Source: Lachnospiraceae oral taxon 107 str. F0167 (lineage in GTDB: Bacteria > Bacillota > Clostridia > Lachnospirales > Lachnospiraceae). Taken from it: a stretch of 35,784 bases of DNA. The notes beneath the pieces were generated by a model. The model did not search any database, was not told the origin of the DNA, and worked only from the letters and a program-made list of their open reading frames with translations. A program made the position numbers and the translations under genes. Below are positions 20,684-35,784 of the stretch, in pieces (the first letter of the stretch is position 1; every line of letters starts with the position of its first letter). The stretch spans positions 89,190 to 124,973 of the forward strand of contig GL890589.1 in assembly GCA_000209465.1 (NCBI GenBank). The letters run 5' to 3'.

Positions 20684-21289
20684 ATGGGTTCAAGCACATT
20701 GATAAAGACGAATAACGGTATTACACAGGTTCCACTTGAAACCAAATTTTTCGGTAAAAGATGTATAAGTATCAGTGGAGAAATAAATGATGAATCTGCC
20801 ATTGATTTTACGGATAAAATATTGGAATTAAATATCGAATCCTGTGAGCCTATTACAATACTTATCAATAGCCCCGGCGGTGAGATAAACAGCGGACTTT
20901 TAATGTATGATGCCATAGTCGGCTCAAAGGCTCCTATAAGAATGATATGCAGAGGAAAGGCTTACAGCATGGGAGCAGTGCTTTTTGCCTGTGCAAGTAA
21001 AAGATACATGCTTCCAAACAGTGAACTGATGCTGCATCAGCCTATGCTTGGGGGCAGAGTATCGGGAAACGCATCAAGTATTAAAAGCATTTCAGACAGT
21101 ATGCTTGAGACAAAGAAAAAATTAAACAGTCTGTTGGCAAGGCATACGGGCAAAAGTGAAGAAGAGATTGATGAGGCTACAAACTTTGACCATTATTTTT
21201 CACCAACTGAATCAATAGAATTTAATTTATGTGATGAGATAATCGAGTTTTCAAAAGTTATTGAGTTTGTAAAAGAAGCGGAGTGGTAA
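20684..21289 (+). CDS. ClpP-like serine protease
   Basis: The 201-residue protein has the ClpP fold motifs: INSPGGEINSGLLMYDAI (oxyanion region, about 61-78), GKAYSMGAVLFACAS with nucleophile Ser95, NSELMLHQPM with His118, and FDHYFSPTESIEFNLCDEI with the likely Asp169. The triad is therefore complete. It is shorter at the N-terminus than housekeeping ClpP and no Clp ATPase gene is next to it. ATG 20684 is supported by GAGGAG 5 bases upstream. Its stop overlaps the ATG of the VirD4-like ATPase gene (TAATG), so the two are made together. Related ClpP-like proteins act as head-maturation proteases in phages, but no phage structural genes are present. Confidence 0.85.
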   Translation: MGSSTLIKTNNGITQVPLETKFFGKRCISISGEINDESAIDFTDKILELNIESCEPITILINSPGGEINSGLLMYDAIVGSKAPIRMICRGKAYSMGAVLFACASKRYMLPNSELMLHQPMLGGRVSGNASSIKSISDSMLETKKKLNSLLARHTGKSEEEIDEATNFDHYFSPTESIEFNLCDEIIEFSKVIEFVKEAEW

Positions 21290-22770
21290 TGAAAAAGAAA
21301 GCAAGAAAGCTGTCAGATAATATAAAAGAAGCAGACAGAGTAGTTTTAGGGGATGGAGAAGATTGCATATTCAGTACCGATACAAATATAAGCGGTATCA
21401 ACAATAATATTTTGGTTGTAGGAGGTTCAGGCTCGGGAAAAACAGTTTCTATAGCGGAGTCTTTTTTACTGGAGTCGTATAATAGAAATATTATTACTAC
21501 AGTGACCAAGAGAAGAATTGTTAATAAGTATATTCCTCTACTGGAAAAAAGAGGATATAATGTCTGGGATCTTGACTTTGTACATCCTGAAAACGGAAAT
21601 GTCGGATATGATCCTTTGGATTTTATAAAGAGCTATCAGGATATTGTTTTTATAGCAAAGAGTATAGTTACGGCAAACAAGAAAAAGGAAAATACCGGTG
21701 GGGATCCTTACTGGGATGAGGCGGCAACATCTCTTTTTTCCGCAATTATATCCTATGTTTTAATGAGAAAGGAAAATCCTAATTTTTCAGATGTATTGGA
21801 AATGCTTGATAAACTAAGCTTTGAAGAGGAGTATAGCGAGCTGAAAACCAATTATGACAGCAAGTTTGACAGACTTGAAAAAATCAATCCCTTCAATTTT
21901 GCCACGGTGAACTGGAGGTCTTTTAGAAGATTGCCTATAAGAACCGCAAGCTGTGTATTTTCTACTTTGAACACTTCTATATCATTTGTATTTACACCGG
22001 AACTTCGAAAAATGTTTAAAATGGAAAGTAAAATAAGCTTTGAGAAGATGGCAAGGGAAAAGAGGGCATTATTTGTGACTACAAGTCCTGTGAATCCAAG
22101 CTTAAACAGCTTTATAAATATGTTTTATGCACATATTTTCAAAGAACTTTTTGAGATAGGTGAAAGGGAGAGTACAGGAGTATTACCTGTTCCTATACAT
22201 TTTTTGGCGGATGATTTTGCTACAGGCTGCCCTGTACCTTTATTTGATCAGTATATTTCTATTTTCAGAGAGAAAGGAATCTCGGTAACGATTTTGGTAC
22301 AGTCGGAATCACAGCTTTCTGCAATCTATGGAAATGACAAATCCACTACTATTATCAATAACTGTGATACCTATGTATATATGGGCTCAAATGATTTGGA
22401 AACCGCAAAAAATATTGCAATGAGAGCGGGCATAATGACTGAGGACTGCCTGAATATGAAACTTGGTAATCAAATCATTTTCAGAAGAGGGGTAAAGCCG
22501 ATATTTTGCAAAAGATATAATATATTTGAAAATGAAATATATAAAGGCTTGAAAGACTGCCCACAGGAAGTACTCGATACTACAGATTGTTTTGTACAGG
22601 AGAGAAAATCATTTATTTCGGAATTAAAAAACAGTATAAAGATGTGTAAATTAGATGATATACCTGATGACAGTATGGAATATGAGAGGATAAGCTTTTT
22701 GAAGGAAGAGGATCTTGGGCTGGATTCAGTATACAAAAATCTGTTTGAAGAGGATACGGATGATTTTTAA
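21289..22770 (+). CDS. VirD4/TraG-like P-loop ATPase lacking membrane helices
   Basis: The 493-residue protein begins near its Walker A, ILVVGGSGSGKTVS (about 41-54), with a later hydrophobic-acid Walker B-like PIHFLADDFAT and the sensor-type ILVQSESQLSAIYG, NNCDTYVYMGSNDLETA. This is the layout of type IV coupling ATPases (VirD4/TraG). The usual N-terminal membrane helices are absent, so it should be cytosolic. It is translationally coupled to the ClpP-like protease. No relaxase, VirB4 or pilus gene is in the window, so a conjugation role is not supported. A hexameric ATPase that works with the protease is an attractive inference. Confidence 0.8.
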   Translation: MKKKARKLSDNIKEADRVVLGDGEDCIFSTDTNISGINNNILVVGGSGSGKTVSIAESFLLESYNRNIITTVTKRRIVNKYIPLLEKRGYNVWDLDFVHPENGNVGYDPLDFIKSYQDIVFIAKSIVTANKKKENTGGDPYWDEAATSLFSAIISYVLMRKENPNFSDVLEMLDKLSFEEEYSELKTNYDSKFDRLEKINPFNFATVNWRSFRRLPIRTASCVFSTLNTSISFVFTPELRKMFKMESKISFEKMAREKRALFVTTSPVNPSLNSFINMFYAHIFKELFEIGERESTGVLPVPIHFLADDFATGCPVPLFDQYISIFREKGISVTILVQSESQLSAIYGNDKSTTIINNCDTYVYMGSNDLETAKNIAMRAGIMTEDCLNMKLGNQIIFRRGVKPIFCKRYNIFENEIYKGLKDCPQEVLDTTDCFVQERKSFISELKNSIKMCKLDDIPDDSMEYERISFLKEEDLGLDSVYKNLFEEDTDDF

Positions 22771-26563: not shown

Positions 26564-27280
26564 ATGAAATACATTGTAAAACTAGAACTGAAAAATCCTG
26601 TGATTCGAAGTGATTACAGAAGAACAATTATCAGCTTTTTTAAGAAGGCAATATCCTCATATATGGACGGATACTTTTATGATGAATTGTATAAAAGCGG
26701 TGCAAAGAAGAAGTCCTTTGTATGGTCAATAGCTTTTAATAAGCCGTCTTTTAAGGGGGAAAAAATTGAGCTTGAAGGCAATGAAGTAAATATGACCTTG
26801 AAGTTTGAAGAAGCGCAAACAGCATTAATTTATTATTCAAGTTTGCTTAATATGAAGAATAAGGCTTTTCCTATAGGAGATAATAATGAAATAAGCCTTA
26901 AAAATATTAAGATGATAAGTGAGAAGGAAATAACTGATGAATATGCCGTATTTAAAATTTTGTCACCGATATGTTTAAAATGTCATAGTAGAGAAAATAA
27001 AAAGGACAGATATTTGACGGTTGAAGATGATGATTTTGCACTTGAATTAGCCAGAAAACTCAAAGATGATATTCCATATATGGAAGAAGAGATTGATACT
27101 CTAAGGTATGACTTAAGCGGACTAAAAAAGATTATAGTACCTGTATATGGTCTTAAAATACCGGTAAGTATAGGAAATTTTATAATCTCAGGTGATAAAA
27201 AAATACTTAATCATATACTTAAAACCGGAATAGGTTCAAAACGAAATTCAGGCTTCGGATTGGTAGAACAGATTGTGTAA
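26564..27280 (+). CDS. cas6: Cas6 crRNA-processing endoribonuclease
   Basis: The 238-residue protein has the double-ferredoxin RAMP layout and ends with the glycine-rich loop GIGSKRNSGFGLVE (about 222-235), diagnostic of Cas6. Cas6 cuts the precursor CRISPR RNA within each repeat, typically 8 bases before the spacer, which would leave AUGUAAAG as the 5' handle here. AAAGGAGG before the ATG gives strong translation. It is first in the operon, 8 bases ahead of cas8. The active-site residues are not obvious from the sequence; no N-terminal His is at the usual place. Confidence 0.9.
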   Translation: MKYIVKLELKNPVIRSDYRRTIISFFKKAISSYMDGYFYDELYKSGAKKKSFVWSIAFNKPSFKGEKIELEGNEVNMTLKFEEAQTALIYYSSLLNMKNKAFPIGDNNEISLKNIKMISEKEITDEYAVFKILSPICLKCHSRENKKDRYLTVEDDDFALELARKLKDDIPYMEEEIDTLRYDLSGLKKIIVPVYGLKIPVSIGNFIISGDKKILNHILKTGIGSKRNSGFGLVEQIV

Positions 27281-27288
27281 GGGGGATT

Positions 27289-28749
27289 ATGATTAGTAAA
27301 TTAGAATTTAAAGAAAATTCTGTCAACTATAACCGTAGAATCGAACCCTCAGACTGGAGATACTCCGCTGCTATGGTTGGTATGATAAGATTTTTTAAAG
27401 ACAGAAATATATCATACCAAACAGAGGGCAGGTATCTTTATTACAATTTTGAAGATATATATAATGAGGGAAAAGATTTCGAGGGAGATAAAGACTATCT
27501 TTTATTTGCTGAAAAATGGTTCTCCGATAAAATGCACCATAATGTGGTTTATAAAAGATTGTGTCAAAACCAATTTACGGATGAAATGATAAAGGAAGTA
27601 AATGAGAAACTTTCGGCAAATACCGTTATGAAGAAAGTCTTTAAAGGTGTAAAATTTGACGGTACAAATGGTGAACTGATTAAAGAATTGGTTGATAATA
27701 ACAGACTTGAACTTATAAGTAATACATTTTGTAATTCAACAAGCGGATACAGGAAGTTTATAAATACTTCAAAATACAGAAGTGAAAGCGCAGATGTATG
27801 TCGTTTGCTCGGGTTTTGCGTGGATACGGGAAGAAAGACCAAATCAATAGGTTTTTGTTTTGACAAGGATTCAAGAACCTTTAATGATGAAGTGGAATTT
27901 GATTTTATACCCTTTGCCTTCTCAAGAAGCGGAAGCTCTGTATTTATAAATAATAATACATCCATAGACTATCTTTTAAAAGCAAATGATGAGATGGAGT
28001 ATTTTCTTGCGGAGAAATTTGAAGAACAAAAAACTTGGAATTCCGTATTCTATAGTTACTCTGAAGGAGCCGGATTTATTGATTATGATGTTGAAGTTAT
28101 AATAAAAAATACGGAAACAGACTATTATGAGAGTATGTTTGTAAGACAGAATGCAATTGAAATTTTTGAAAAAATATCAGATAACAGCGAGTTTTCAGAT
28201 TCTTTAAAAAATGTTTTTAAAAGACATGTGAAGGTAAATGAAAATTATTATATTAATGTAATGCAAGAGGTAACGGACAGTATATTAAATGAGCTCAGTC
28301 TGGATGATTTGATAGAAAGACTGATGAAGGTAGAGTATGATACCGATTCGACTACTCCTGAGACCTACTGCCTAAGCCGACTAATTTATATTAATAAAAT
28401 TATATATGAAAAAAGGGAGGGAAATATGGAAAAAACACCGGAGTTTAAGGGTTCAAGTGCGGCTGCATCACAAGTAGTACAATATTTTATTACAAACAGG
28501 CAGGAGAATAAAATTAAAGGTTATCAGCAGAGACTTGCCAACACTTTAATTTCAAAAGATTATGAAAGATTTATAGAAATAATGCTTCAACTGTCTTCTT
28601 ATACAGAAGTACCTTTTACATTTATGCATAAGTTGATACAGGACTTTGAAGCAAATAAAAATCTGGCATATAATTTTATAAATTCACTTATTATAAGCAG
28701 TAAAAGAAAAGATGATAATCCGGAGGGAGGAAAGAGCAATGAAAAATAA
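27289..28749 (+). CDS. cas8: Cas8 large subunit of the type I-B-like Cascade complex
   Basis: The 486-residue protein sits between cas6 and cas7, the position of Cas8. It starts MISKLEFKENSVNYNRRIEP and contains IPFAFSRSGSSVFINNNTSI (about 203-224), a block typical of Cas8b1/Cst1- and Cas8a1/Csx8-like proteins. The CXXC pairs that name the Cst1 family are not preserved; only scattered cysteines (CRLLGFC, GFCF) remain. Cas8 recognises the PAM and anchors the crRNA 5' end. GGGGG precedes the ATG. The last 107 codons can be translated separately from an internal ATG at 28426 (see the Cas11-like entry). The gene overlaps cas7 by 11 bases. Subtype assignment between Cst1-like and Csx8-like is uncertain. 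Confidence 0.8.
   Translation: MISKLEFKENSVNYNRRIEPSDWRYSAAMVGMIRFFKDRNISYQTEGRYLYYNFEDIYNEGKDFEGDKDYLLFAEKWFSDKMHHNVVYKRLCQNQFTDEMIKEVNEKLSANTVMKKVFKGVKFDGTNGELIKELVDNNRLELISNTFCNSTSGYRKFINTSKYRSESADVCRLLGFCVDTGRKTKSIGFCFDKDSRTFNDEVEFDFIPFAFSRSGSSVFINNNTSIDYLLKANDEMEYFLAEKFEEQKTWNSVFYSYSEGAGFIDYDVEVIIKNTETDYYESMFVRQNAIEIFEKISDNSEFSDSLKNVFKRHVKVNENYYINVMQEVTDSILNELSLDDLIERLMKVEYDTDSTTPETYCLSRLIYINKIIYEKREGNMEKTPEFKGSSAAASQVVQYFITNRQENKIKGYQQRLANTLISKDYERFIEIMLQLSSYTEVPFTFMHKLIQDFEANKNLAYNFINSLIISSKRKDDNPEGGKSNEK
28426..28749 (+). CDS. Internal in-frame start: predicted Cas11-like small subunit
   Basis: Within cas8 and in its frame, GGGAGG (28415-28420) lies 5 bases before ATG 28426, an excellent ribosome site in a coding region. 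It would yield a 107-residue protein starting MEKTPEFKGSSAAASQVVQY, which is helical and about the size of Cas11 small subunits. Independent translation of a small subunit from the 3' part of cas8 is established for several type I systems, including I-B. No separate cas11 gene exists here, so this product is expected. Confidence 0.7.
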   Translation: MEKTPEFKGSSAAASQVVQYFITNRQENKIKGYQQRLANTLISKDYERFIEIMLQLSSYTEVPFTFMHKLIQDFEANKNLAYNFINSLIISSKRKDDNPEGGKSNEK

Positions 28750-29632
28750 GGCTTTAACTTTAACAGTAGTAGCAAGTATGACTTCAAACTATGGAGAGGG
28801 ACTTGGAAATGTAGGAAGTATTCAAAAGGTATATAAGAACGGTAAGGCTTATGCCATCCGTTCAAGAGAAAGTATGAAAAATGCCATCATGGTACAGAGC
28901 GGTCTTTATGATGATTTAAAAGTGGAGCAGGATGGAAAAGTTGATCAAAAGGCTGTATCAAAGGATATCAATGTAGCAAATAACAGAGCCTTAGAGGGCG
29001 GATATATGAGTACTATAGGTGACAGAAAGATTAGAAGAAGTTCATTTTATCTTACAGATGCCATTTCATTTTATCCATTTGTAAATGAAACGAGATTTCA
29101 CAATAATCTCTATCTTGCACAGACATTTGCTAAGGAAAACGGGATAAATATTCAGGAAAAAGCTGCAAATGCAGGACTTATGCCTTATCAATATGAATAT
29201 GACAAGTCCTTAAAAAGATACAGTATAACCATTGATTTGGATAAGGTTGGAATTGATGAAAACTATGATACCAAGGCTGAAAAGGGAGAAAGAGCATATA
29301 GAGTAAAGGCGCTTCTTAGTGCAATAAAAAATCTGTCTATGGTTGTTAGAGGAAATATGGACAATGCCGAGCCGATATTTGTAGTAGGCGGTATAGGAGA
29401 TAAAAAGACTCACTATTTTGAAAACGTAGTTCATATAGAAGCAAACAAACTGAAAATAGAAGAAGATTTAAAGGCTAAGCTTAAAGAAGGCTATAGAGCA
29501 GCTTTGTTAAAAGGCTATAACTTTGAAAATGAGAAGGAAATTGAAGCCGAACTTAATGCAGGTTCTGTAGAAGAGTTCTTTGTAAACTTAAGCAAAGAGG
29601 TGGACGAATATTATGAAAGCATTGAGAGTTAA
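28739..29632 (+). CDS. cas7: Cas7 (Cst2/DevR family), Cascade backbone
   Basis: ATG 28739 is chosen because GGAGGGAGG (28722-28730) lies 8 bases upstream; the frame opens earlier at 28712 without a ribosome site. The 297-residue protein starts MKNKALTLTVVASMTSNYGE and continues with GNVGSIQKVYKNGKAYAIRS and RESMKNAIM, matching the Cst2/DevR group of Cas7. Multiple Cas7 copies line the crRNA spacer. It overlaps cas8 by 11 bases and cas5 by 20 bases, so all three should be translated together. Confidence 0.9.
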   Translation: MKNKALTLTVVASMTSNYGEGLGNVGSIQKVYKNGKAYAIRSRESMKNAIMVQSGLYDDLKVEQDGKVDQKAVSKDINVANNRALEGGYMSTIGDRKIRRSSFYLTDAISFYPFVNETRFHNNLYLAQTFAKENGINIQEKAANAGLMPYQYEYDKSLKRYSITIDLDKVGIDENYDTKAEKGERAYRVKALLSAIKNLSMVVRGNMDNAEPIFVVGGIGDKKTHYFENVVHIEANKLKIEEDLKAKLKEGYRAALLKGYNFENEKEIEAELNAGSVEEFFVNLSKEVDEYYESIES

Positions 29633-30710
29633 ACTTAGACAAAATCAAGCTTCATATACGAGAGAGGAAACAGTCAATAATCGTATGACCTATCCGCTTC
29701 CACAGTATTCTACAATTATAGGTGCTTTGCATAATGCCTGCGGTTATACTTCCTATCATGAAATGAAAGTCAGTGTACAGGGAAAGTATAGAAATATGCA
29801 AAGGGAGCTTTATGTAAATCATGCACTGCTTAATAATCTGGAAGATGATAGAAGTATACTGATATATAATCAAAATCCTGACGCATTAAATACAGGTTTT
29901 ATTAAAGTTGCAGAGGCACTAAAATCTCAGGGAAACAGTTTTAAAGATAAAAAGACTATACAGATATTTGATGAAGATAAGTTGGAAGAGTATATAAGTA
30001 TAAAAAATATTGCCGCTGAATTAAGAACTGAGAAAAAAAAGCAAATTGATGATAAAGAGAAGAACTGGAAGGAAGAAAAAAAGCTTATAAAGGATAGGCT
30101 AAGTAAACTTGAAGCAAAATCTGAAGAAGCTTTGGAACTAAAAAAAACTATTGATGAAAAAGACTCGGAAATAAAAGGGCTGAAAGCTGATTATAAGAAA
30201 GAACTTTTTCAAAAAGTGGATGAACCTTTAAGCCATTTTAAGACTTTGACTAAAAGTGTACAGACTCAGGAAGTGCTATATGATGTTGAACTGGTTATTC
30301 ACATAAGTGCCGAAGAAGAGGTGTTAAGGGATATAGTGGAAAATCAAAACAATTTGGTTTCACTTGGCAGGAGTGAGGACTTTATAGAACTTTTAGAGAT
30401 AAAGGAAGTTGAACTTAGCCAAGGTATAGATGGTGAGTATGAATTATCTGACGGATATTCCATGTATGTAGATATTGATTGTATAAACATAGAAAATCCT
30501 GAAGAAGGGGATTACTTCCTTGCAAGAGAAGGCACAAAAAAGCCGGCAAAGGGTACTATCTACTATGTGTCAAAGGACTATAAAATCGAAGGAAAAAAAC
30601 GAGTGTTTAATAAAATACCCTGTCTGTTTTCTTCAATTATAGGAATAGGGGGAGAAACAAAAAATTATATATTTGATCCGGATGGAAAGTATATAGTAAA
30701 TTTAAATTAA
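29613..30710 (+). CDS. cas5: Cas5 with a large coiled-coil insertion
   Basis: The N-terminus (KALRVKLRQNQASYT, NRMTYPLPQYSTIIGALHNA) and the C-terminal half (YDVELVIHISAEEE, about 223-236; LGRSEDFIEL, about 251-260) are typical of Cas5t-type Cas5, which caps the crRNA 5' handle. The protein is 365 residues against roughly 230-250 for usual Cas5. The extra length lies between about residues 75 and 205, and residues about 132-200 form a highly charged predicted coiled coil (KKKQIDDKEKNWKEEKK, LSKLEAKSEEALELKK, IDEKDSEIKGLKADYKKE). The start lies inside the cas7 end; AGAGG is 12 bases upstream. Confidence 0.85.
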   Translation: MKALRVKLRQNQASYTREETVNNRMTYPLPQYSTIIGALHNACGYTSYHEMKVSVQGKYRNMQRELYVNHALLNNLEDDRSILIYNQNPDALNTGFIKVAEALKSQGNSFKDKKTIQIFDEDKLEEYISIKNIAAELRTEKKKQIDDKEKNWKEEKKLIKDRLSKLEAKSEEALELKKTIDEKDSEIKGLKADYKKELFQKVDEPLSHFKTLTKSVQTQEVLYDVELVIHISAEEEVLRDIVENQNNLVSLGRSEDFIELLEIKEVELSQGIDGEYELSDGYSMYVDIDCINIENPEEGDYFLAREGTKKPAKGTIYYVSKDYKIEGKKRVFNKIPCLFSSIIGIGGETKNYIFDPDGKYIVNLN

Positions 30711-30740: not shown

Positions 30741-30932
30741 ATGAATTATAAAAAAGTTATACATAATACTCCGGCAGGAGGAGATTATTCGAAAATATAT
30801 TATTTTGATTCAAATTTTAATATTGTTGATGAAGAAAATGCGTCAAAGTGTATTATTCGAGAATGTAAATCTGATGGGACATTAGTTAAAGAAACTTTCG
30901 GGCTTTGTAATAAAGATAATAAAATATTATAA
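30741..30932 (+). CDS. 63-residue protein of unknown function inside the cas operon
   Basis: The ORF begins MNYKKVIHNTPAGGDYSKIY and ends CNKDNKIL, with the core YFDSNFNIVDEENASKCIIR and ECKSDGTLVKETFGLC. It is soluble and beta-rich looking, with three cysteines and no DNA-binding motif. AAGGG lies 7 bases before the ATG. It starts 30 bases after cas5 and is followed by a strong terminator, so it is the last gene of the cas6-cas8-cas7-cas5 transcript. I do not recognise a family. It could be a Cascade accessory, a toxin or antitoxin, an anti-CRISPR-like cargo, or unrelated. Confidence 0.55.
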   Translation: MNYKKVIHNTPAGGDYSKIYYFDSNFNIVDEENASKCIIRECKSDGTLVKETFGLCNKDNKIL

Positions 30933-31027: not shown

Positions 31028-33391
31028 ATGGAAATAAAGGATGAATTGGCAGAGATTTATAAAAAATATAAGGCAAAAGAAAATGAAACAATTTATGAGC
31101 ATACAAAAAATCTGCTTTCTAAACTTGAAGAATTAAAAGATATAGTTGCTATAGATGATATTGATTTGATTGCGGAGGCTTGTATATTCCATGACTTTGC
31201 AAAAGTAAACCCGTTATTTCAAAGAAGACTTGAATCGGGGAAAAAATTGGATGAAAACGAAGAGATAGGGCATAATATTCTTTCTTTTTATATGGCAAAG
31301 AACTACCTTGAAGAATATAGCAAAGAAGATAGGAATATAATTCTATATGCGATATTAAATCATCATAATTATGTTGATAATTTTGAGACTATAGATAAAA
31401 AACAGGATTTGATAAGTGCTAATTTAAAATCCATATCTACTGAAGTATTTAAAGACGATGAGATAGATTTTTTTAAAAATATAGGTTTGAGAGAGTTGGC
31501 AGTAATTAGAAAACTTAGAACGAATCCCTCAAAAAAATCAATACTTGTAAAAGGTTTTTTACATAAATGTGATTATGCGGCAAGTGCACATAGTAAAATA
31601 GATATGCCGAATATACATTTGGAAAGCAGACTTGAAAAGCTGAAAGATGATTTTGTCAGTAAGGGCTCTTCAGACGGTTGGAATGAAATGCAAAGATTTG
31701 CAAGGGATAATACAGACAGTAATTTAATACTGATAGGCTCTACCGGACTTGGAAAAACAGAGGCTTCTCTTTTGTGGATAGGGAATAATAAAGGTTTTTA
31801 TGTGCTACCATTAAAAACTGCAATAAATGCAATGTATAGGAGAATTAAGAATACTTTATATAAAGACGATTATACCAAAAATCTTGGGCTGCTTCATGGT
31901 GAACTTGAAAACATATATTTGGAAGAAGATGATGAAAGTTCTATGGCATTAGACAGTGAGACCGAAGAAAGTATGAAGTTTTGGGAGTATTATGGACTTA
32001 CCCGCGCTATGTCACTGCCATTAACAATATGCACTCCGGATCAGGTGTTCAGATTTGCTTTTAAATATTGTTCCTATGAATTACAGCTTGCTACTTACAG
32101 CTATTCAAAAATGGTAATAGATGAGATACAGGCATATTCACCTGATATATTGGCTACACTTATATATGCTTTGCAACTTATAGATATGGTGGGAGGCAAG
32201 TTTGCAATCACTACAGCGACATTACCGCCTTTTATAAAAGATTTATTACAAGAGGGTATAGATAAAAAAATAGAATATAAAGAAAAGCCTTTTTTGAATA
32301 ATAAGATAAGACATAGAGTAAGCCTAAGACATAGTGCTATCAATATAGATGATATTAAAGACTTTATAGATGATAAATACCATCAGGAAAGTATGAAGCT
32401 TTTGGTTGTAGTAAACACAGTAACAAAAGCACAAGGTATTTACAGAGAACTTAAGTCATGGCTTGATGAAAATGATATTGAAATAGAAATGAACTTGCTA
32501 CATTCAAAATTCACAGTACAGCATCGAAGCGAAAAAGAGGAGGCTATATTAAAAGATGGCGAAAGCAAATGTAAAAAAAGAGTTATTTGGATTTCTACAC
32601 AGGTAGTTGAGGCAAGTCTTGATATCGACTTTGACTATTTGTTCACAGAATTATCGGATTTGAGCTCTCTGTTACAAAGACTTGGAAGATGCAACAGAAA
32701 AGGCTTAAAGTCTGTAGATGAATTTAACTCCTATGTCTATCTTGATATAGATGAAAATTTACTTATAAAGTACAGTGACAATAATGCCTATTCCTCAGGT
32801 GGAATTATATATAAATCTTTGTATGAACTCAGCAAGGCGGCATTGCTTGAATGGGAAACTGAAAATAATACCGGGCTATTTTCCGAAGCGGATAAGAACA
32901 GTCTGATTGAAAATTATTTTACTAAGAAAAAGATAGAGGAATACGACAAGATGTATAGCAGCATTTATAGAGAATATCTTGCTGAATATAAAAGAATGCA
33001 CGATCATCTTGTATACATAATACCTGATTCAAAGAATGCTAAAGAAGTAACTAAGGAGTTTAGAAATATAATCAGCAGAAGAGTTATACCACAGTCTATA
33101 TATGAGGATAAGCAGGAAAACATAATTGGTATAATTGATGAAATTGAAGAAAAAAGAAAACTTATAGGAAAAACAAAAAGTACAGTAGAAAAACAGAAAC
33201 TGAGGGTAGATATACTTCGCTTAAAAAATGAATTTAGAAAGTTCACTTTAAATATAAGCTTAAGAGAACTGGATAAGGATAAAGACTATTGTGTGGTGGA
33301 TAATGAGAAAATTATTATTTCTACACGAGTTTATAATAAAGAGTATGGGATAATAAAAGAAAAAGAGGGTAGTGGTAGTATATTTTTATGA
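31028..33391 (+). CDS. cas3: Cas3 HD nuclease-helicase
   Basis: The 787-residue protein has an N-terminal HD nuclease domain (YEHTKNLL with His25, CIFHDFAKV with His55-Asp56, LNHHNYVD) and a C-terminal SF2 helicase: Walker A GSTGLGKTEASLLW (about 237), DEIQ box (about 365), TTATLPP, and WISTQVVEASLDIDFDYL then LLQRLGRCNRKG (about 545-560). It is recruited by Cascade to nick and unwind target DNA. GGGAGG (31016-31021) gives a strong start. Because a terminator lies just upstream, it may need its own promoter or read-through. It overlaps cas4 by 4 bases. Confidence 0.95.
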   Translation: MEIKDELAEIYKKYKAKENETIYEHTKNLLSKLEELKDIVAIDDIDLIAEACIFHDFAKVNPLFQRRLESGKKLDENEEIGHNILSFYMAKNYLEEYSKEDRNIILYAILNHHNYVDNFETIDKKQDLISANLKSISTEVFKDDEIDFFKNIGLRELAVIRKLRTNPSKKSILVKGFLHKCDYAASAHSKIDMPNIHLESRLEKLKDDFVSKGSSDGWNEMQRFARDNTDSNLILIGSTGLGKTEASLLWIGNNKGFYVLPLKTAINAMYRRIKNTLYKDDYTKNLGLLHGELENIYLEEDDESSMALDSETEESMKFWEYYGLTRAMSLPLTICTPDQVFRFAFKYCSYELQLATYSYSKMVIDEIQAYSPDILATLIYALQLIDMVGGKFAITTATLPPFIKDLLQEGIDKKIEYKEKPFLNNKIRHRVSLRHSAINIDDIKDFIDDKYHQESMKLLVVVNTVTKAQGIYRELKSWLDENDIEIEMNLLHSKFTVQHRSEKEEAILKDGESKCKKRVIWISTQVVEASLDIDFDYLFTELSDLSSLLQRLGRCNRKGLKSVDEFNSYVYLDIDENLLIKYSDNNAYSSGGIIYKSLYELSKAALLEWETENNTGLFSEADKNSLIENYFTKKKIEEYDKMYSSIYREYLAEYKRMHDHLVYIIPDSKNAKEVTKEFRNIISRRVIPQSIYEDKQENIIGIIDEIEEKRKLIGKTKSTVEKQKLRVDILRLKNEFRKFTLNISLRELDKDKDYCVVDNEKIIISTRVYNKEYGIIKEKEGSGSIFL

Positions 33392-33885
33392 TGCATGAAA
33401 AGGTGACGGGGATAATGATATATTATTATTTTGTATGCAGGAGGAAACTCTGGCTGTTTCATAATGATATATCTATGGAAGATGAGAATGAGCTTGTACA
33501 GATAGGAAAATTTATAGACAGTAATTCATACTCATCTGAAAGAAAACATATAATGATAAATGAGGAGATAAATATAGACTTTGCAGAGAGTCGAGGTGTA
33601 ATTCATGAAATCAAGAAGAGCAGAAAAATTGAAGATGCTTCTGTTTGGCAGCTTAAATATTATTTATATTATTTAAAGCAATATGGTGTGGAAAATATTG
33701 AGGCAAAGCTTGATTATCCACTGCTAAAAAAGACTGTAGATGTGAGTTTGACAGAGCAGGATGAAAAAAAGATAAGGGAAATACTTGATAATATTAAAGA
33801 TATCATTCAATCAGAAGATATACCTGACTGTTTAAATAATAATATCTGCAAGAAATGTGCATATTTTGATTTGTGCATGATATAG
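33388..33885 (+). CDS. cas4: Cas4 exonuclease for spacer acquisition
   Basis: The 165-residue protein has the Cas4 pattern: YYYFVCRRKLWLFHND with Cys17 near the N-terminus, VIHEIKKSRK and VWQLKYYLYYLK (RecB-like nuclease QxxxY), and a C-terminal CLNNNICKKCAYFDLCMI cysteine cluster for an Fe-S centre. Cas4 selects and trims prespacers with Cas1-Cas2. The ATG overlaps the cas3 stop; a second ATG follows at once (33391). Confidence 0.93.
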   Translation: MMHEKVTGIMIYYYFVCRRKLWLFHNDISMEDENELVQIGKFIDSNSYSSERKHIMINEEINIDFAESRGVIHEIKKSRKIEDASVWQLKYYLYYLKQYGVENIEAKLDYPLLKKTVDVSLTEQDEKKIREILDNIKDIIQSEDIPDCLNNNICKKCAYFDLCMI

Positions 33886-33899
33886 GGAAAGGGGGATAA

Positions 33900-34892
33900 A
33901 TGAAAAACAGCTTATATATTTATCAAAACGGAGAACTGAGCAGGAAAGATAATACATTGAGGTTTACCGGAGAGGAAGGCGGGAAAAAGGATATACCTGT
34001 TAACAGCATTTCAGAGATCTATTTTTTCGGTGAAGATACTATCAATACCAAGCTTATTACTTTTTTGGCACAGAATAATATAATGGTGCATTTCTTTAAT
34101 TATTATGATTTTTATGTATCAAGTCTTGTACCAAGGGAAATGAAAGTTTCAGGGAAGCTGTTGGTAAAACAGGTTGAACATTATACGGATAAAGAAAAAA
34201 GGACTGAACTTGCAAAAGAGTTTGTAAAATCCGCAGGAAATAATATATATAGAAATCTTCGCTATTATAATGGTCGTGGCAAAGATGTACAGGATGCAAT
34301 GAATGAAATAACATATTTGCTGGGTGAAGTGGAAAAATGCGATAGTATACAGCAACTGATGGGAGTTGAAGGAAATATTCATAAGATTTATTACAGCAAA
34401 TGGAATGTAATAATAGATCAGGAAACAGATTTTACAACAAGAGTGAAGAGACCGCCTGATAATATGGTAAATACTTTGATTTCATATATAAACAGCTTAG
34501 TATATACAACAGTGCTGGGAGAAATATATAAAACACAGTTAAATCCGACTATAAGCTATTTACATGAGCCCGGAGTCAGCAGATTTTCACTAAGCCTTGA
34601 TATCGCAGAAATATTTAAACCACTTATTGCAGACAGACTGATTTTTTCTTTATTAAACAAAAATCAAATAAAAGAAAAACATTTCTCGAAAGGGCTGGAT
34701 TATCTGCATTTATCGGAACAGGGTTCTAAAATAATATTGGCAGAGTATGATAAGAGACTAAAGCAAACAATCATGCACAAAGAACTTGGCAGAGAAGTCA
34801 GTTACAGATACTTAATAAGACTGGAATGTTATAAGATGATAAAACATCTGTACGGCGAGAAAAAATATGATGCTTTCGTAATGTGGTGGTAA
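33900..34892 (+). CDS. cas1: Cas1 integrase
   Basis: The 330-residue protein carries Cas1 metal-binding residues Glu157 (MGVEGNIHKIYY), His222 (YLHEPGVSRFSLSLDIAEIF) and Glu237/Asp234. It inserts new spacers at the leader end of the array. GGGGG lies just before the ATG. It follows cas4 by 14 bases; cas2 starts 2 bases after its stop. Confidence 0.96.
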   Translation: MKNSLYIYQNGELSRKDNTLRFTGEEGGKKDIPVNSISEIYFFGEDTINTKLITFLAQNNIMVHFFNYYDFYVSSLVPREMKVSGKLLVKQVEHYTDKEKRTELAKEFVKSAGNNIYRNLRYYNGRGKDVQDAMNEITYLLGEVEKCDSIQQLMGVEGNIHKIYYSKWNVIIDQETDFTTRVKRPPDNMVNTLISYINSLVYTTVLGEIYKTQLNPTISYLHEPGVSRFSLSLDIAEIFKPLIADRLIFSLLNKNQIKEKHFSKGLDYLHLSEQGSKIILAEYDKRLKQTIMHKELGREVSYRYLIRLECYKMIKHLYGEKKYDAFVMWW

Positions 34893-34894
34893 TT

Positions 34895-35170
34895 ATGTAT
34901 GTTATACTTGTATATGATATATGTAAAGAGGGAAATGGACAAAAAAGATGGAATAGGGTGTTTAAACTGTGTAAGCAAAACCTTGTGCATATTCAAAAAT
35001 CTGTATTTGAAGGAGAAATCTCAGACTCCGACTTGTTTAAGCTTGAAGGATCAATCGAAAAGGAGATAGATAAAAGTACCGACTCGGTAATAATCTTCAA
35101 GAGCAGAAATGAGAGGTGGCTTGATAAAAATGTAATAGGATTGCAGCAGGATGATCCGTTTATGATTTGA
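34895..35170 (+). CDS. cas2: Cas2
   Basis: ATG 34895 is preferred over the in-frame ATG at 34883, because MYVILVYDICKEGNGQKRWN is the normal Cas2 start with Asp8 in VYD and GGTGG lies just upstream. The 91-residue protein fits Cas2 size and contains CKQNLVHIQKSVFEGEIS and SVIIFKS. It forms the Cas1-Cas2 integration complex. The leader and array follow directly. Confidence 0.95.
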   Translation: MYVILVYDICKEGNGQKRWNRVFKLCKQNLVHIQKSVFEGEISDSDLFKLEGSIEKEIDKSTDSVIIFKSRNERWLDKNVIGLQQDDPFMI

Positions 35171-35378: not shown

Positions 35379-35784
35379 ATTGGAATATATCCAGAATGGA
35401 ATGTAAAGGATGAAATTAACAAGTATTTTGGTTGTGATTTTAGCATTGGAATATATCCAGAATGGAATGTAAAGGTTAAATTATCCGCTATTTCAATAAC
35501 AGATTCCAGATTGGAATATATCCAGAATGGAATGTAAAGTGTTTTCACTATATTGTAACGGTGTTACCATACCAATTGGAATATATCCAGAATGGAATGT
35601 AAAGTACATTTATTAAATGTAAGGGTGAAAGCTGCTAATGATTGGAATATATCCAGAATGGAATGTAAAGTAAGAAAACAGAAAAAGGAGAAATAAAAAT
35701 GGCAATATTGGAATATATCCAGAATGGAATGTAAAGATAAAAATATATTAAGTAACGGACTTTCGTACTATTATTGGAATATAT
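35379..35784 (+). CRISPR. CRISPR array, 30-bp repeats, six complete spacers, cut by the window edge
   Basis: Six identical complete repeats start at 35379, 35445, 35510, 35575, 35641 and 35707 (30 bases each), and a seventh is cut after 12 bases (35773-35784). The repeat begins ATTGGAATATATCC and ends GGAATGTAAAG. Spacers are 36, 35, 35, 36, 36 and 36 bases (35409-35444, 35475-35509, 35540-35574, 35605-35640, 35671-35706, 35737-35772) and all differ. The leader-proximal end is at cas2, so spacer 1 should be the newest. Identical repeats and intact cas genes suggest an active system. The array continues beyond the window. Confidence 0.98.

Follow-up and report, generated by a model that had tools for sequence, protein, structure and literature searches.

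The window, the whole stretch of 35,784 nucleotides from Lachnospiraceae oral taxon 107 str. F0167 that was analysed, carries a complete operon in the order cas6-cas8-cas7-cas5-cas3-cas4-cas1-cas2, followed by a CRISPR array. Its gene order, together with a Cst2-type Cas7 and a Cas1b, classes the operon as type I-B. The features to which we refer below are the following.

26564..27280, + strand: cas6 (TIGR01877)
27289..28749, + strand: cas8 of the Csx8 family, 486 aa (TIGR02670, PF09657)
28415..28421, + strand: Shine-Dalgarno-like GGGAGGG inside cas8 (read directly; duplex energy; conserved)
28426..28428, + strand: in-frame ATG inside cas8, Met380 of Cas8, predicted start of cas11 (from the sequence; kept in relatives)
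28426..28749, + strand: predicted small subunit resembling Cas11, with the sequence of the Cas8 C terminus (107 aa, 12.4 kDa)
28739..29632, + strand: cas7 (Cst2/DevR; TIGR02585), overlapping the end of cas8 by 11 bases as read from the sequence
29613..30710, + strand: cas5 (Cas5b), 365 aa (profile matches)
31028..33391, + strand: cas3 (profile match)
33388..33885, + strand: cas4 (TIGR00372 at 64.4 bits, just below the cut-off of 65; second profile match)
33900..34892, + strand: cas1 (Cas1b; TIGR03641)
34895..35170, + strand: cas2 (TIGR01573)
35379..35784, + strand: CRISPR array (30-nt repeat, spacing of copies 65-66 bases), running off the contig end

One named relative came to light, Lachnoanaerobaculum gingivalis KCOM 2030; its cas8 is 92% identical. 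Cas5 is long, with 365 residues against the 217 positions of TIGR01895, and holds an extended charged insertion (residues ~80-220) that looks coiled-coil-like by eye; since the Cas5b model of PADLOC spans the whole protein, it is a known variant. Upstream of the operon, positions 21283-22770 encode a large ATP-binding protein that by eye resembles conjugative coupling proteins, so that this region may belong to a mobile element.

The cas8 gene matches the TIGR02670 model from end to end (positions 1-441 of 441; 377.7 bits vs a cut-off of 201.75) as well as PF09657 (315.3 bits vs a cut-off of 29.2), and by these profiles it is an ordinary cas8 of the Csx8 family. It had been described beforehand as lacking the CXXC pairs of Cst1, and indeed the sequence contains no CXXC motif and gives no match to TIGR01908 (Cst1) at E values up to 1. 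Csx8 is uncommon: of 397 genomes from the family, 10 have a match (one fragment and one Cst1 gene included), and in samples from genus to phylum, which overlap one another, the counts are 2/6 for the genus, 11/392 for the order, 6/321 for the class and 2/398 for the phylum. Two other families gave 2 of 22 and 4 of 48 genomes, and type I-B systems of the Csx8 type are spread over eight or more family-level groups within the class. Among viral contigs, 68 stretches matched the search pattern and none was a relative; the plasmid search returned no match.

Deep inside cas8, GGGAGG (28415-28420) is separated by five bases (28421-28425) from an in-frame ATG at 28426, from which 107 codons lead to the stop shared with cas8; reading the sequence directly confirmed this arrangement as it was first described. 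The site is predicted to pair with the 16S tail at -12.0 kcal/mol. For comparison, 26 window ORFs, hand-picked as likely genes, contain 433 in-frame ATG, GTG or TTG codons in their interior, with a mean of -2.1 kcal/mol. Only 1 of these 433 reaches -12.0, namely 28426 itself, and 8, again with 28426 included, reach -8.4. The starts of the cas genes, as annotated, score -11.1 for cas6, -9.6 for cas8, -12.0 for cas7, -10.3 for cas5, -11.5 for cas3, -6.2 for cas4, -11.0 for cas1 and -6.3 for cas2. When all frames and both strands of the window are considered, 5 of 1332 ATGs reach -12.0, and the site alone is therefore suggestive, not decisive; it is conservation that decides. The predicted mRNA pairing around the site (0.38 vs an average of 0.50 for its 300-base stretch) was not counted as evidence. 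The end of the same gene offers a parallel: the start of cas7 overlaps the cas8 stop, and the cas8 tail EGGKSNEK (28720-28749) doubles as the ribosome site for cas7, so that the same device is used twice in one gene.

We then followed the site through the relatives of this cas8, choosing the internal site in each by its position from the listing of that gene's starts. Loss of the ribosome site or of the ATG in relatives was the outcome named in advance as speaking against the original prediction; an in-frame start with a strong upstream site was instead present at the same place in all 19 Csx8 genes that include the region (18 ATG, 1 TTG), with Cas8 identity to the window gene falling as low as 33% (split gene excluded). 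The 19 comprise 18 full-length genes and one that is split between two contigs (G425) and represented by its C-terminal piece. They also include G088, which is almost a twin of the window gene and was dropped for the background and GGAG counts. Outside the count are L002 (unrelated), L010 (an N-terminal piece, G259), L011 (Cst1, counted there), L012, L014 and L019-L021 (the same genes as other loci), L022 (the N-terminal piece of the split G425) and L023 and L025 (weak remnants interrupted by stops). Three of these, L010, L023 and L025, are Csx8 fragments or weak remnants elsewhere, two with stops inside the match, and are perhaps decayed systems. L002, a second match in the genome of the window itself (E 8.7e-4, 79 residues), was rejected as an unrelated protein, MiaB/RimO-like by eye.

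The pairing energies at the internal site range from -8.4 to -13.8 across the 19 genes with a mean of -10.6, while the other in-frame starts in those genes average -1.7. Ranked among the ATGs of all frames, the site comes first in 16 of the 19 genes and second in the remaining 3. In the 18 genes without the twin, only 1 of 334 other in-frame starts, and none of 124 other in-frame ATGs, reaches -8.4; the gene G278 has another in-frame start that is stronger than its conserved site (-10.7 vs -9.8). All 18 carry GGAG upstream of the start, and 12 carry GGAGG. The small subunits so predicted are 87-115 aa long, with masses of 10.1-13.3 kDa, in line with the 10-15 kDa or so expected of such bacterial products. 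An argument on subunit stoichiometry from site strength was dropped: a subunit present in several copies might require the stronger site, yet the internal site exceeds the start site of cas8 itself in only 7 of 18 genes.

Such conservation could in principle reflect the protein rather than the mRNA. A conserved flexible linker may precede a C-terminal helical domain, the apparent ribosome site being a by-product of its Gly and Glu codons and full-length Cas8 the only product. In most relatives the motif is indeed read GGA GGN (Gly-Gly) or GGA GTN (Gly-Val), with one GGG GGA, that is, in codons that resemble a ribosome site, and a Gly-rich linker by itself could supply the motif in these genes. 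Synonymous shuffling at fixed peptide sequence often yields sites as strong as those observed, in 2-74% of shuffles depending on the gene, with a combined P of 0.004 over 19 related, and thus non-independent, genes. Codon choice by itself is only modest evidence for a constraint on the nucleotides. The window gene (G000), G088, G185 and G1323 argue against the linker, because there the motif is read in another phase, (NN)G GAG G(NN), encoding x-Glu-x; the peptide before the Met (REGN, LEEA or LEVE) has no Gly-Gly, but GGAGG still stands 5 nt before the ATG. These four genes group in the Cas8 tree, which also took in 3 of the 6 Cst1 genes described below; support at the base of the group is modest (84/66) and three of the four are joined at 96/90. 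In this clade the peptide has altered and GGAGG and the start have remained in place, and this change of phase with a retained start codon is better evidence than codon choice. A linker also gives no account of a start codon kept in 19 of 19 genes, one of them as TTG, nor of operons that lack a separate cas11 as a replacement. We regard the linker as an improbable explanation, and internal initiation as the preferred one.

The original prediction also stated that the operon has no stand-alone cas11, and none is found among the ORFs of at least 25 aa in the window operon. Nor did the corresponding regions of 17 relatives, 14 of which span cas6 to cas2, contain a cas11-like ORF between the cas genes: the ORFs of at least 60 aa lying off known cas genes number four in all 17 regions, are 62-67 aa long and in three cases run on the other strand. 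The sole unexplained ORF of the window operon, of 63 aa between cas5 and cas3 (30741-30932), is not cas11-like; a counterpart with 84% identity occurs in region L064 of the L. gingivalis-like G088, and the remaining 16 regions show no clear match to it.

The helical nature claimed for the product received moderate support. AlphaFold, from an alignment of two sequences, modelled the small subunit as five helices with medium confidence (mean pLDDT 65.2, pTM 0.49). A Foldseek search of the PDB with this medium-confidence model returned 98 matches, none with E ≤ 0.001 and the best at 1.4, and no Cas11 stood among the best 50 of the 98. The full-length Cas8 model was unusable (pLDDT 32). By sequence, the PDB yielded no relative of Csx8, only isolated matches at chance level (E 0.2 and 1.3), and the full-length profile gave none.

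We consider it highly probable, from these sequence comparisons, that one gene here gives two proteins and that the internal start of cas8 yields the Cas11 small subunit of the Csx8-type I-B Cascade. The operon mRNA would be translated twice within cas8. Initiation at 27289 would give full-length Cas8, the large subunit, and a second initiation, at the internal ribosome site and ATG 28426, would release the C-terminal domain as a free, predicted helical protein of 107 residues. If stable, this protein would enter Cascade and serve there as Cas11, several copies lining the belly of the complex alongside the copy of this domain that forms the end of Cas8, where they may bind the non-target strand and so hold the displaced DNA during R-loop formation. 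Conservation supports the part of the original prediction that foresaw a separately made small subunit, whereas its wording that the gene 'shows' this was too strong for a sequence, which only predicts it.

McBride et al. 2020 is said to be the founding paper on internal translation of Cas11. The phenomenon itself, as the original prediction stated, is documented for types I-B, I-C and I-D (PMC11899642, PMC7684278, PMC11096372, PMC13199841). Cas11 made from inside cas8 is therefore already known in sister systems, to which the Csx8 case would add. As early as 2011, the helical C terminus of Cas8 was proposed to stand in for a missing small subunit (PMC3150331). The archaeon Haloferax volcanii comes close to the present case: its system is also type I-B, its operon has no separate cas11, and Cas11b starts at an in-frame ATG in the last third of cas8 (PMC11899642), as established by tagging, mass spectrometry and mutation of the start codon (PMC11899642). 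It differs in that Cas11b, starting at Met545 of cas8b, has a calculated mass of 25.5 kDa and a GGATG site, and its gene matches the Csh1 model, whereas the window gene belongs to Csx8 and has a predicted product of 12.4 kDa behind a GGGAGGG site. The Cas11b of the Synechocystis type I-B system comes from another Cas8b variant (formerly Cmx8), set beside Csx8 by description. In the type I-B1 system of Thermotoga maritima, an internal start in cas8b1 like that of the window gene would give a 15.1-kDa product (PMC13199841); this start is only predicted in T. maritima and was silent in Escherichia coli (PMC13199841). Since the silent Thermotoga start left an incomplete complex (PMC13199841), a Csx8 system moved to a new host would have to be supplied with Cas11 or keep its internal start working.

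A small subunit could also arise by proteolysis of Cas8, or from a short mRNA with its own promoter inside cas8, rather than from a second ribosome start on the operon mRNA. For the Cas8b proteins of Clostridium thermocellum and Methanococcus maripaludis, fragmentation had at one time been suggested (as told in PMC11899642), and between 27900 and 28760 we counted 8 promoter-like matches on both strands against 3.8 expected (s.d. 1.9); two of these, on the + strand, fall within 28309-28341, shortly upstream of the internal site. Proteolysis, however, would need neither a ribosome site nor a start codon; promoter-like matches are no proof of function, and a short mRNA would still require the internal start and so amounts to a variant of the main reading. 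We hold both routes to be very improbable. More improbable still is that the internal start is used for a product that is no Cascade subunit, for example a regulator. Loss of Cas11b in Haloferax altered many transcripts (PMC11899642), yet the position and size of the predicted product fit Cas11 of types I-B and I-C, and the operon has no other small subunit.

The same scan was applied to other cas8 families. Type I-C and Csh1/TM1802 genes, in which an internal Cas11 has been shown or proposed, served as positive controls: a strong internal start lay 119-140 codons from the end in 18/18 type I-C genes (L049, a 36-residue piece, was dropped) and 131-152 codons from the end in 8/8 Csh1/TM1802 genes (L056-L061 duplicate L050-L055 and were dropped, and L062 and L063, kept in the set, fell below the Csh1 cut-off). 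All six Cst1 genes (L011, L081-L085) have one as well, at a distance of 105-118 codons from the end. The scanned start ranked as the strongest internal start in 28 of these 32 control and Cst1 genes and came second in L039, L051, L053 and L085. By this comparison the internal-start rule is extended to the Csx8 and Cst1 families, with exact predicted start sites.

The six Cst1 proteins all score above the TIGR01908 cut-off. Cst1 is homologous to Csx8 along its length (99.3% profile probability; 93.5% for the small-subunit part). It differs from the window Cas8 in carrying two CXXC motifs in all six proteins and in being 77-108 residues longer in five of the six; L081 is a short, divergent Cst1 protein. 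Between the profile of the Csx8 small subunit and the profiles of its counterparts in type I-C, such as Cas11c from the Cas8c family of Desulfovibrio vulgaris, or in Csh1/TM1802, hhalign detected no similarity. The flanking Cas8 parts likewise gave nothing against type I-C and Csh1/TM1802, and the null result for the small subunits therefore says little about origin; Cas11 proteins of different subtypes are described as lacking significant similarity to one another (PMC11899642). We put forward only tentatively, as a rather doubtful proposal, that the Csx8/Cst1 lineage possesses an internal small subunit of its own, without detectable sequence kinship to those of type I-C and Csh1, and that the arrangement may have arisen more than once, kept in place by a ribosome site on the nucleotide level that outlasted a change of codon phase in one clade.

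The available parts of PMC10328091, PMC6677821, PMC6079278, PMC3150331, PMC9650447 and PMC13199841 describe no Cas11 produced from Csx8 or Cst1, and the survey of McBride et al. 2020 could already include csx8; the word csx8 was not found in the available part of the 2025 classification paper (PMC12669027). The same csx8 gene order is described in Clostridium tetani (PMC6677821). The Csx8 type I-B system of Acetobacterium woodii DSM1030 is active in interference and genome editing in vivo in its native host (PMC10328091). In one of the loci analysed here, L078 (G1191), the repeat published for A. woodii DSM1030 (PMC10328091) occurs 46 times without a mismatch, and this identity suggests that G1191 is A. 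woodii. The internal site is present in the L078 operon, which lacks a stand-alone cas11.
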